From a bacterium (GTDB lineage: Bacteria > CG2-30-53-67 > CG2-30-70-394): a stretch of 23,804 nt of DNA. The first letter of the stretch is position 1. Each line of letters begins with the position of its first letter. The notes beneath the pieces are model-generated. The model saw only the letters and a list, made by a program, of their open reading frames with translations, was not told the DNA's origin and did not search any database. Both the position numbers and the translations under genes were made by a program. Shown here piece after piece: positions 12,909 to 21,013 of the stretch. The stretch spans positions 1 to 23,804 of the forward strand of contig JAJRSX010000205.1 in assembly GCA_024278555.1 (NCBI GenBank). Direction: 5' to 3'.

Positions 12909-12995
12909 CGGCGGCGCAGGGTAGCGGCCCGGAGGCAGCGGAGACAGCCCCGCGGTGGCAAGACCACGAAGGGCGAGAAGGGGCGGACGATGCAG

Positions 12996-13071
12996 AGGGG
13001 GGAGGTGAGCGGAGCGCTGGTGTCGCCGCTGCCAGCCTCGCGGAAGGCGTGGGCCTTGAAGGCCGGGATTC
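12996..13071 (+). repeat. Left arm of a ~76-bp inverted repeat
   Basis: It matches the reverse complement of 13620-13696 almost throughout. The inner 36 bases (13036-13071, CCTCGCGGAAGGCGTGGGCC onward to GGGATTC) are identical by eye, and the outer part (GGGAGGTGAG, GGAGCGCTGG, GTCGCCG) has a few mismatches. The inner end is the GGCCTTGAAGGCC hairpin box, followed by word repeats (CACGAAGGCGCAAAGGCGCC). The arms are about 550 bases apart. Confidence 0.85.
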
Positions 13072-13149
13072 GACACGAAGGCGCAAAGGCGCCAGGGGGA
13101 GACAGATCCGAGGCGAGGCGTCACCGGCAGCGGATCGAGGTATCGCACC

Positions 13150-13200
13150 GGCCTGGAAGGCGGGGCTCACCGCCAAGGGCGCCAAGGCGCAGAGGGAGGG
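13150..13200 (+). repeat. Box-plus-word element (GCCAAGG type)
   Basis: The box GGCCTGGAAGGCGGGGCTC (13150-13168) is followed by degenerate words CGCCAAGGG, CGCCAAGG and CGCAGAGGG. It has the same layout as 13052-13099 and, on the minus strand, 13593-13639 and 17342-17388. Confidence 0.7.
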
Positions 13201-13430
13201 GAGGCGGGGTGGAGGTGCGAGCGGCCCGGAGAGATGTGGCGTGCCGTAAAGGGGGTGATGGGTGGAAGAGAGGATGGCGTACGAGGTGCAGAACCGTTCG
13301 GGTGAGCCGGGCAGGGAAGGCCACCCGCGAACAGACGCACATGGACGGGAACGGGCCCTCTCCAGCGGCGATCAAGACGGCGGCGCCGGACTGAGAAGGC
13401 GAGGCATGGAGAGAGATGCAAAGTCAAGAA

Positions 13431-13462
13431 CTGACCCTGGCGGCTGCTGACCCTGGCGGCTG
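13431..13462 (+). repeat. 16-bp direct tandem duplication
   Basis: Two perfect adjacent copies of CTGACCCTGGCGGCTG, preceded by AAAGTCAAGAA and followed by CACGCGGGTCAAGAAATGG, so the AGTCAAGA/GGTCAAGA flanks are also similar. It lies in non-coding sequence. Confidence 0.85.
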
Positions 13463-13560
13463 CACGCGGGTCAAGAAATGGCGTGAATGGGTGGTGTCTC
13501 TTGAGCCGATGCCACTTGACCGCCTGCGGTACGTCCGCCTCCGGCGCGGTGGGGCGGTTA

Positions 13561-18866: not shown

Positions 18867-18905
18867 CGGCGAGGCGACCCTTTCCGAGGTGAGAAAACGG
18901 CGGCG

Positions 18906-18933
18906 ATTATCCCCACGGCCGCACCGCCGACAA
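18906..18933 (-). promoter_or_regulatory. Putative sigma-70 promoter of the OprB-like porin
   Basis: On the minus strand: TTGTCG (-35, 18933-18928), a 16-base spacer, and GATAAT (-10, 18911-18906). The -10 matches TATAAT at 5 of 6 positions and the -35 matches TTGACA at 4 of 6. Predicted transcription starts about 30 bases before the ATG. Just upstream of the -35, 18934-18949 is a near-perfect 8-base direct repeat (GGGACCCC, TGGACCCC) that could be an operator. Confidence 0.5.
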
Positions 18934-19122
18934 GGGACCCCTGGACCCCGCGTCGCATCCGAACCTACGACCTCAGCCCATCCACGCACGGAGCACCCTT
19001 TTGGCTACACTCGGTAGCGACCCTCACGGAGGAGAGCCCACCCACCCCACCGCGGCCGCGCGACGGTGCACTACCTCTCGTGCCACCCGCGCCACCCCAC
19101 CCGCCCGCACCGGAGCCCAGCC

Positions 19123-20907
19123 ATGACCGACGCCCCCCCCGCCGCCGCCACCGGCGGCCGCTTTCTCGTCGAACCCCTCGACCCGGATGAGCTGCTCACC
19201 CGCGAGCGGTTCACCGACGAGCACCGCGACATCGAGGAGATGGTGCGCGACTTCGCCACCGAGCGGGTGCGCCCGAACCGCGACGCCCTGGAGACCCTGA
19301 ACAGGGAGCTCGCCCTCAAGCTCCTGCGCGAGATGGGGGAGCTGGGGCTCCTCGGGATCGACGTCCCCGAGGCGTACGGCGGCATGGAGCTCGATAAGGT
19401 CACCACCGCCATCGTCGCCGAGTCCATGGGGCGCTCCTACTCCGCCTCCTTCTCGGTGGTCTTCTCGGTGCAGACCGGGATCGGCTCCCTGCCGATCGTC
19501 TGGTTCGGCACCCCGGAGCAGAAGCGGCGCTACCTGCCGAAGCTGGTCACCGGCGAGTGGGTCGGCGCCTACGCCCTCACCGAGCCGTCCGCCGGCTCCG
19601 ACGCCCTCTCCGGCAAGACCAGGGCGGTCCTCTCGGAGGACGGCAGCCACTACGTGCTGAACGGCGAGAAGCAGTTCATCACCAACGCCGGCTGGGCGGA
19701 CCTCTTCACCGTCTTCGCGCAGGTGGACGGGACGCGCTTCTCCGCCTTTCTGGTGGAGCGCGACACCCCGGGGCTGGAGGTGGGGGCGGAGGAGAAGAAG
19801 ATGGGGGTGAAGGGCTCCTCCACCTGTCCGCTGGTCCTGAAGGATGTACGGGTGCCGGCGGAGAACCTCCTCTACGAGGTGGGCAAGGGGGCGACCATCG
19901 CCTTCAACGCCCTGAACCTCGGCCGCTTCAAGCTCGCCGCCTCCGACATCGGCGGCAGCAAGTCGGTCTTCGAGGAGGCGGTGCGCTACGCCAAGGGACG
20001 GCGCCAGTTCGCCCAGGCGATCTCCAATTTCGACGCCATCAAGGGGAAGCTCGCCGACATGGCGGTGCGCATCTACGCCGCCGACTCCATGGCCTACCGC
20101 ACCATCGGCCTGATCCAGCAGGCGGTGGACCGCCTCGACAAGGAGGCCCCCGACTACTACGTGCGCATGGGCGAGGCGACCGAGCGGTACGCCATCGAGG
20201 CGTCGATGACCAAGGTGTACGGCAGCGAGACCCTGGCCCTGGTGGCGGACCACGGGGTGCAGATCCTCGGCGGCTACGGTTTCATCGAGGAGTTCCCCAT
20301 GGCCGGTCCGTACCGCGACACGCGCATCGACCGGATCTGGGAGGGGACGAACGAGATCAACCGGCAGATCGTCGCCGGCACGATGATGAAGCGGGCCATC
20401 CTGGAGGAGCTGCCGATCCGCGGGCAGATCCGCACCATCGACGCCTTCCTCGACGGCGAGCCCACCGCCGCCGGCGGCCCCCTGGCCGCCGAGTGGACGG
20501 CGATCGAGACCGGCAAGCGCCTCGCCCTGTCGCTCCTGCACGAGGCGCTCAGCGAGTTCAGCCAGGACCTGCGGCACGAGCAGCAGCTCATGGAGATCCT
20601 CGCCAACATGCTCATCGAGCTCTACACCGCCGAGTCGACCGTCGGCCGCGCCGCCCTCCTCGACCCGCGGTCGGCAGAGCAGCCCACCGCGGTGAAGGTC
20701 GCCCGGGTGCAGGCGGCGGAGGCGTCGATCCGCCTGCTCAACCTGGCGCTCACCGGCCTCAACGGCATCTTCCGCGGCGACCTGCCGGTGGCCATGGTCG
20801 AGCGGCTGCGCCGCTTCCAGGTACGGATGATCCCGCGCACCGACATCATCCGCCTGAAGCGCGACATCGCCGAGTACGCCTGCGACAAGGATATCTACCC
20901 CTTTTAA
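19123..20907 (+). CDS. fadE: Long-chain acyl-CoA dehydrogenase (FadE-like)
   Basis: This 594-residue FAD enzyme of the VLCAD-like branch carries out the first oxidation of fatty acyl-CoA in beta-oxidation. Signatures are ALTEPSAGSDA (about 152-162), NGEKQFITNAG, a GGYGFIEEFPMAGPYRD block, and IWEGTNEINRQIV with E407 in the position of the acyl-CoA dehydrogenase catalytic base. About 150 residues follow the dehydrogenase core, as in VLCAD and Bacillus FadE (about 594 residues). ATG 19123 is preceded by GGAG at good spacing. The product order FadE-FadA-FadN in this operon supports the role. Electron acceptor (ETF) genes are not in the window. Chain-length preference is inferred. Confidence 0.9.
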   Translation: MTDAPPAAATGGRFLVEPLDPDELLTRERFTDEHRDIEEMVRDFATERVRPNRDALETLNRELALKLLREMGELGLLGIDVPEAYGGMELDKVTTAIVAESMGRSYSASFSVVFSVQTGIGSLPIVWFGTPEQKRRYLPKLVTGEWVGAYALTEPSAGSDALSGKTRAVLSEDGSHYVLNGEKQFITNAGWADLFTVFAQVDGTRFSAFLVERDTPGLEVGAEEKKMGVKGSSTCPLVLKDVRVPAENLLYEVGKGATIAFNALNLGRFKLAASDIGGSKSVFEEAVRYAKGRRQFAQAISNFDAIKGKLADMAVRIYAADSMAYRTIGLIQQAVDRLDKEAPDYYVRMGEATERYAIEASMTKVYGSETLALVADHGVQILGGYGFIEEFPMAGPYRDTRIDRIWEGTNEINRQIVAGTMMKRAILEELPIRGQIRTIDAFLDGEPTAAGGPLAAEWTAIETGKRLALSLLHEALSEFSQDLRHEQQLMEILANMLIELYTAESTVGRAALLDPRSAEQPTAVKVARVQAAEASIRLLNLALTGLNGIFRGDLPVAMVERLRRFQVRMIPRTDIIRLKRDIAEYACDKDIYPF

Positions 20908-20920
20908 ATTAAAAATAATT

Positions 20921-21013
20921 CACCGCAGAGACGCAGAGGGCACAGAGAGCTGCATGGGAAAAAAGTGTTTATTTGGTTTGTGGTTCTCTGCGTCCTCTGC
21001 GCCTCTGCGGTGG
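20921..21013. repeat. CGCAGAG inverted repeat inside the fad operon
   Basis: The left arm (20921-20950) reads CACCGCAGAGACGCAGAGGG then CACAGAGAGC. The right arm (20981-21013) is its imperfect complement (GTTCTCTGCGTCCTCTGCGC, CTCTGCGGTGG). The arms could form a stem of about 30 bp with a 30-base AT-rich loop containing AAAAAA and TTTATTT. It is preceded by an AT-rich tract (20904-20920) that contrasts with the GC-rich surroundings. It fills most of the 150-base gap between the acyl-CoA dehydrogenase and thiolase genes. Confidence 0.85.

Follow-up and report, generated by a model that had tools for sequence, protein, structure and literature searches.

The palindromes of the REPIN/RAYT system carry a GTAG (or CGTC) tag at one end (PMC3733652), and Xanthomonas genomes each contain 70-75 convergent pairs of heptameric repeats, for which no mobile element has been reported (PMC4692102). 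Inverted repeats also bound the intervening sequences of 23S rRNA, termed selfish, which contain the open reading frame (ORF) known as S23 and are excised by RNase III (PMC4990558). The repeats that we examined occupy the gaps between genes in a 23,804-nucleotide (nt) stretch of bacterial DNA (GenBank contig JAJRSX010000205.1; hereafter, the window) and consist of arrays of short words, many of them forming inverted pairs. These arrays probably represent the terminal inverted repeats of small mobile elements, which form one family and would be mobilized by, or together with, a nuclease of the GxxExxY family, a reading that rests on their structure and conservation, on dispersed near-identical copies, on empty sites and on their co-occurrence with the nuclease gene.

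Elsewhere in the window's genome, two inverted pairs of CGCAGAG arrays enclose a gene of about 125 codons, whose product is a GxxExxY protein (NCBIfam TIGR04256): two copies score 85.7 and 150.2 bits, where the cut-off is 35, and PF13366 is likewise above its cut-off. A PF13366 search of this genome returned four genes, one of them frameshifted, and all four are bracketed by inverted arrays. Such arrays flank most of 122 GxxExxY loci in bacteria and archaea; the cross-phylum survey used one genome per species, and its 80 relatives, the closest of at least 583, include Acidobacteria, Chloroflexi, Planctomycetes, Verrucomicrobia, several proteobacterial classes, Bacteroidetes, Cyanobacteria, Methanosarcinales and others. 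Among the 79 loci having both flanks, 55 have inverted repeats between these flanks (150 nt each) that exceed the 99th percentile of 252 displaced controls. The 7-mers most enriched at the flanks are CACAGAG, CACGGAG and CGCAGAG; successive words (motif C-R-C-V-V-A-G) are spaced by 8 nt (108), 9 nt (73) or 10 nt (29); and array density declines from 143 in the first 50 nt from the gene to about one per bin past 300 nt. An autocorrelation blind to the words detected periodicity near the gene at lags 8 and 9 only.

The GxxExxY gene is co-directional with both neighbors at 65 of 84 loci and opposed to both at only one (as judged by a longest-ORF heuristic). Its reading frame is open through the left array in 75 of the 100 loci that have one, and when there is a start codon outside the array, its commonest distance is exactly 6 nt ahead of the first word (ATGAAC-CACAGAG), such that the words encode an N-terminal tail. 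Because T is absent from CRCVRAG words, and A from their complement, an array with T-free spacers has no stop codon in any frame. The gene presumably has no promoter of its own and is expressed by read-through from the host operon.

An AlphaFold2 model of the protein is confident (predicted local distance difference test score, 95.3), and among solved structures it comes closest to Cas4 SSO0001 (Z 9.6) and to lambda-type exonucleases; archaeal Hjc also matches (Z 7.0), but similarities below Z 8 may mirror merely the general nuclease fold. The catalytic residues are conserved (D63 in 72, E73 in 70 and K75 in 71 of 72 proteins), and with both the modeled core fold and the D...ExK residues present, GxxExxY is predicted to belong to the PD-(D/E)XK nuclease superfamily. 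No chain in the PDB is related by sequence at E<=1, and no PADLOC defence family matched at that threshold, so we set aside membership in a known anti-phage defence system. The open-licence literature in PubMed Central (PMC) mentions GxxExxY only in passing, in two papers, and contains essentially no dedicated work, and we found no paper there that prints the arrays in a relevant context.

Within the window, a preliminary description had listed several word families, and all of its words lie where it placed them, to within a few nucleotides. Three gaps (2,040 nt) hold seven arrays of at least three words, as compared to none in 200 dinucleotide shuffles, and ten arrays of at least two words against 0.07 ± 0.26 in such shuffles; 8.8 kb of adjoining coding DNA has no excess (1 vs. 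0.63 in shuffles). Genome-wide, CGCAGAG-N(1-2)-CGCAGAG has 42 matches and the reversed pattern four. The tendency of words to occur as inverted pairs is borne out by arms of 28, 31 and 101 nt in the window and by the array pairs in 95 kb around the CGCAGAG-pattern matches, 28 of which are convergent and 5 divergent (these pairs being partly non-independent). The proposed unit of 8-11 bases does repeat, but is better described as a 7-base word followed by 1-3 spacer bases, i.e., 8-10 nt. No Rfam family matched anywhere in the window, and the DNA fold of its clearest hairpin (20921-21012) has an energy of -28.8 kcal/mol (z -6.4).

The word families had been regarded as unrelated, which does not hold: with the exception of ACAGGAT, all are dialects of one heptamer, C-R-C-V-R-A-(G/T/A), spaced at 8-10 nt. 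In the window's genome, the palindrome GGCCTTGAAGGCC lies just outside CACGAAG, CGCCAAG, CACGGAA, CGCAAAG, CGCAGAG and CGCAGAT arrays, and it accompanies 15 of 85 arrays, as compared to 1% of control windows. In other genomes (L143, L159, L160), GxxExxY genes have ACAGGAT and CGCAGAT words at their flanks, and several word families have the outer palindrome in common, so the supposedly unrelated words belong to one architecture. The suggestion that a common generator underlies differing words is supported, in that a single arrangement around the nuclease gene covers the word families tested; there are many copies, the periodicity is stronger than in shuffles, and the families are not of independent origin. 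In several contigs of this genome (G000:C73, C91, C148, C152), dialects cluster on the same strand in the order CACGAAG, CGCAAAG, CGCAGAG at intervals of about 30-110 nt, as if these were composite or nested elements.

The two arms at a locus almost always use the same dialect, with correlations of 0.99 (word position 2) and 0.96 (position 5), and none of 2000 permutations matched as closely. Variable word positions agree between arms in 91% of cases (59% when shuffled) and spacer lengths in 94% (44% when shuffled), but spacer letters agree in only 52%, against 45 ± 6% in shuffles. Copying of one arm from its mirror image would have matched the spacer letters as well, so their mismatch marks word identity and pitch as the constrained features. 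This pattern points to a protein that would read words at a fixed pitch, and it speaks against slippage, palindrome correction or selection for base-pairing alone. Of the generators that had been put forward, binding sites for a phased protein fare partly well: as such sites would require, the arms agree in word letters and in spacer length, and not in spacer letters, but a pitch of 8-10 nt is not a helical turn. The other, templated or slippage-prone local synthesis, would generate tandem, purine-rich repeats of short period, and template switching in palindromes could supply mirror-image arms with no element involved. We regard it as extremely improbable: Besides the uncopied spacer letters, the units recur with defined ends, orthologous sites are empty, near-identical copies are dispersed, array load follows one gene family, and each of two gene families has a specific pitch (lags 8-9 in the case of GxxExxY, and 7 in that of the S23 genes considered below).

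Further evidence of mobility comes from short forms that have the ends of the element and not its gene. In three genomes (G008, G201, G178), hairpins have arms consisting of three words after an outer motif, with a short variable loop, and their ends match those of nuclease elements within the same genomes; the outer motif in G008 and G201 is AAAACC..TTMACC. In another genome (G177), near-identical copies of about 150 nt occur at several loci with differing flanks. Three hairpin loci (among L268-L287) are filled in some relatives and empty in others, and the window's hairpin at 20921-21012 is missing from the corresponding gap of a genome of the same genus (G007). The gap between the genes that we take, from their translations, to be trpE and trpG (carA and carB, below, were named in the same way) measures 5-40 nt when empty and 447-499 nt when occupied by array, nuclease and array. 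In the gap orthologous to L280 (L318-L326), five genomes have hairpins that differ among themselves in dialect and pitch and four are empty, which could reflect either repeated insertion or replacement in place; one member of this set, L324, has an unrelated insert.

These hairpins could instead act at the level of RNA, forming a stem in the operon transcript for RNase III or the termination machinery, as in 23S rRNA intervening sequences or the stabilization of mRNA by repetitive extragenic palindromic (REP) sequences, with mobility being secondary. The strength of the hairpin, the placement of the genes in operons, and the excision by RNase III of the S23-bearing intervening sequences in 23S rRNA (PMC4990558) are all in keeping with such a role. 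Even so, we consider it improbable as the explanation, since the mismatched spacer letters indicate that selection is on words and pitch and not on perfect pairing, and the gaps are functional without a hairpin in close relatives.

If arrays are the ends of elements mobilized with GxxExxY, their abundance should be tied to that gene, and in a sample of 199 genomes (the family around G008, with array-rich genomes defined as those having at least five triple-word arrays), 17 of the 32 genomes with PF13366 were array-rich, as opposed to 5 of the 167 without (odds ratio 37; p = 6e-12, a value that overstates the certainty because genomes of one family are related). S23 genes show no such association (4/32 vs. 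18/167, p = 0.76) and bear period-7 arrays of their own, which removes S23/IVP as a mobilizer of the CRCVRAG arrays. Alternatively, the palindromes might be moved by some other transposase, such as the Y1 enzymes of the RAYT/IS200 type, with GxxExxY a chance cargo caught between two of them. The hairpins resemble REPINs in form, size and intergenic location (PMC3116915), a REP-like palindrome lies in the same gap of the window (17114-17198), and Y1 genes are common, being present in 108 of the 199 genomes. But Y1 genes (PF01797) have no significant association with array load (odds ratio 2.5, p = 0.07), genomes without a Y1 match still show the link to the nuclease (5/14 vs. 1/77, p = 2e-4), and in phylum after phylum it is the nuclease rather than a transposase that lies between the arms, so we view a Y1 mobilizer as unlikely.

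The relatedness of the sampled genomes is one of several points that count against assigning the arrays to a GxxExxY element. No GxxExxY gene occurs inside the window, and tblastn recovered no relic of one in its gaps, the weak matches (E>=0.01) all lying elsewhere in the window. Five array-bearing genomes (G036, G068, G107, G131 and G146, with 5-36 arrays) have no detectable PF13366, possibly through loss of the nuclease, a gap in the assembly or a different mobilizer, and 15 of the 32 genomes with the nuclease do not reach five triple-word arrays, some of them using other words. More distant GxxExxY clades, beyond the closest 80, may differ or lack arrays. Target-site duplications show no excess over shuffled partners, with AATAAA (L351) and ATGA (L268) as individual candidates. 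Finally, dialect agrees only weakly to moderately with the nuclease tree: the changes required number 14 at position 4 (22.0 ± 1.3 when shuffled), 21 at position 2 (26.2 ± 2.1) and 13 at position 5 (15.9 ± 1.1). The tree is therefore not what dictates the words, which change faster than the protein family splits and yet do so jointly in both arms.

An element consistent with these data would exist in two forms. The full form, of about 450-500 nt, would run from an outer terminal motif (TTCACC-like; also GGCCTTGAAGGCC in the window's genome) through two to four heptamer words and the gene for a GxxExxY protein of about 125 amino acids (TIGR04256/PF13366), with a predicted PD-(D/E)XK fold, to the words again in inverted orientation; the short form, of about 70-170 nt, would retain only the two word arms, with a variable loop between them. 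Expressed by read-through of the host operon, its start codon often adjoining the words, the nuclease may recognize the word arms and cut or nick there, after which nuclease elements and short copies alike would be re-inserted into short intergenic gaps, probably with the involvement of host repair. Movement by the GxxExxY nuclease, which we infer, could proceed by excision or by a homing-like copying-in. As vehicles between genomes, phages appear to be excluded by the scarcity of relatives (3 in 2.9 million viral contigs), and plasmids by the fact that the 8 records with relatives have only distant ones, each below 60% identity.

A second gene family has the same design. S23/IVP genes, which encode a four-helix bundle (PF05635), lie between inverted arrays of contiguous heptamers: their flanks are periodic at lag 7, and at no other lag, in 25 of 48 cases, as compared to 1 of 48 far flanks. 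Seventeen of 24 S23 loci exceed the inverted-repeat threshold, and in 21 of 22 the gene is co-directional with both neighbors. S23/IVP genes at L036 (G000:C165) and L236-L261 occupy operon gaps, with dialects of their own (GTGGTCA, GAGTGCT, GTTCAAG and others). The gap between carA and carB contains a GxxExxY element in two alphaproteobacteria (L055, L065) and an S23 element in the window's genome (L036), such that one gap hosts two unrelated types of element. These observations lead us to consider a broader class, 'word elements', in which a small gene in an operon gap lies between inverted heptamer arrays, which would serve as a modular address for a dedicated protein. The class would include at least two unrelated proteins (GxxExxY with a pitch of 8-10, S23/IVP with a pitch of 7), and its non-autonomous hairpins would make up much of the heptameric repeat DNA that lies unexplained between bacterial and archaeal genes; we see the chances that this generalization holds as evenly balanced. 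It predicts that the Xanthomonas heptamers are linked to S23.

The window itself contains one clean short-form copy and several older ones that are apparently nested (Table 1).

Table 1. Word arrays and associated inverted repeats in the window
Feature	Position	Strand	Composition and context
Short-form element (hairpin), complete	20921..21012	.	Between acyl-CoA dehydrogenase and thiolase genes
Hairpin, left arm	20921-20948		CGCAGAG CGCAGAG CACAGAG; 28 nt, 89% complementary to right arm
Hairpin, loop	20949-20984		
Hairpin, right arm	20985-21012		Inverted CGCAGAG x3
Long inverted repeat, left arm	12992..13092	+	101 nt, 88% complementary to 13599-13699; contains outer palindrome GGCCTTGAAGGCC and words CACGAAG CGCAAAG (array 13074-13088)
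Long inverted repeat, right arm	13599..13699	-	Array CGCCAAG CGCCAAG CGCAAAG at inner end (13595-13617)
Array CGCCAAG CGCCAAG CGCAGAG	13171..13194	+	Outer palindrome GGCCTGGAAGGC directly ahead
Array CACGAAG x3, 9-nt pitch	16603..16627	+	Possible outer partner at 17544-17560
Inverted CACGAAG pair	17544..17560	-	17 nt, 88% complementary to 16602-16618
Degenerate CGCAGAG/GCAGAG array	16890..16915	+	Surroundings recur in G007 (query 572-619)
Array CACGGAA x3, left arm	16983..17008	+	31-nt arms 16981-17011/17440-17470, 84% complementary
Inverted array CACGGAA x3, right arm of 16983-17008	17443..17468	-	
Inverted array CACGGAG CGCAGAG	17043..17058	-	
Inverted ACAGGAT array (ATCCTGT on + strand)	17304..17333	-	ACAGGAT also flanks GxxExxY gene at L143
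Inverted array CGCAAAG CGCCAAG	17353..17367	-	Outer GGCCTGGAAGGC

DNA around and inside the hairpin loop (20908-20985) is AT-rich and the rest of the window GC-rich, suggesting a recent arrival from elsewhere. Between the long inverted arms is an exact 16-nt tandem duplication, CTGACCCTGGCGGCTG x2 (13431-13462). The hairpin at 17114-17198 (GGTAGGAGGGGGTTGCACCCGCGA...), which is of the kind seen in REP sequences and bacterial interspersed mosaic elements, has 32-nt arms that are 88% complementary and has related copies at several places in G007 (query about 835-899); it looks like an ordinary GTAG-type REP, distinct from the word arrays. On the minus strand, 17568-18842 is an open frame of about 424 amino acids with no NCBIfam match; the genes next to it are of clear identity, namely tgt, lpxB, hldE and those for an acyl-CoA dehydrogenase and a thiolase.

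If our reading is correct, a little-studied family becomes the candidate mobilizer of repeats in many bacterial and archaeal phyla, and small palindromic elements would owe their movement to a simple nuclease rather than to any transposase already known. The reading would also explain much of the repeat DNA between bacterial genes, and the heptameric repeats that had not been tied to any mobile element (PMC4692102) would gain a testable origin. The dialects would amount to a natural experiment on the co-evolution of a DNA-reading protein and its site, with the caution that many short 'tandem repeats' in gaps would be the ends of elements.

Of the systems already described, REPIN/RAYT has much in common with these elements: hairpins in intergenic gaps, each built from two inverted units, a protein gene with such units in opposite orientation on its two sides, dispersed non-autonomous copies, genome-specific dialects, and inverted doublets as the dispersed unit (as the 28 convergent against 5 divergent pairs, and the hairpins, indicate). 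However, the arms of the GxxExxY elements are tandem heptamers rather than a single palindrome with a GTAG tag, neither that tag nor CGTC being found in the hairpins that we read, whose terminal consensus is TTCACC plus words; and their gene is PF13366, with a predicted PD-(D/E)XK fold, and not a Y1 (HUH) enzyme. Miniature inverted-repeat transposable elements (MITEs) with DDE parents likewise comprise short inverted-repeat copies that have the ends of a coding element and leave empty sites, but the parent element here encodes GxxExxY only, with no DDE transposase, its ends are word arrays, and target-site duplications occur as individual candidates with no consistent excess over shuffled partners. 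The heptameric intergenic repeats of cyanobacteria, Xanthomonas (GGGAATC) and Beggiatoaceae (TAACTGA) are also tandem heptamers in gaps, in Xanthomonas as convergent pairs (PMC4692102); they differ in having a contiguous period of 7, as around S23 genes, whereas the window's words have 1-3 spacer bases, and no associated gene has been reported for them. Slippage-type repeats have a contiguous, exact period, in contrast to the 8-10-nt pitch and free spacer letters seen here. The 23S rRNA intervening sequences with an S23/IVP ORF share a small ORF between inverted repeats and are regarded as selfish (PMC4990558), but GxxExxY is an unrelated protein, its elements occupy gaps between protein genes, and their repeats are word arrays. 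With Cas4 and lambda-exonuclease-like PD-(D/E)XK nucleases, GxxExxY appears to share its modeled fold and active-site plan, though as a minimal 125-amino-acid domain without a PDB sequence match at E<=1. The elements are thus best classed as miniature inverted-repeat mobile elements with a dedicated protein, which work in the manner of REPIN/RAYT and MITE systems but have neither the GTAG tag and Y1 link of the former nor the DDE gene and a clear target duplication of the latter; as far as we could find, this class of nuclease had not been linked to such repeats, and the kind of element that it accompanies is apparently widespread and undescribed.

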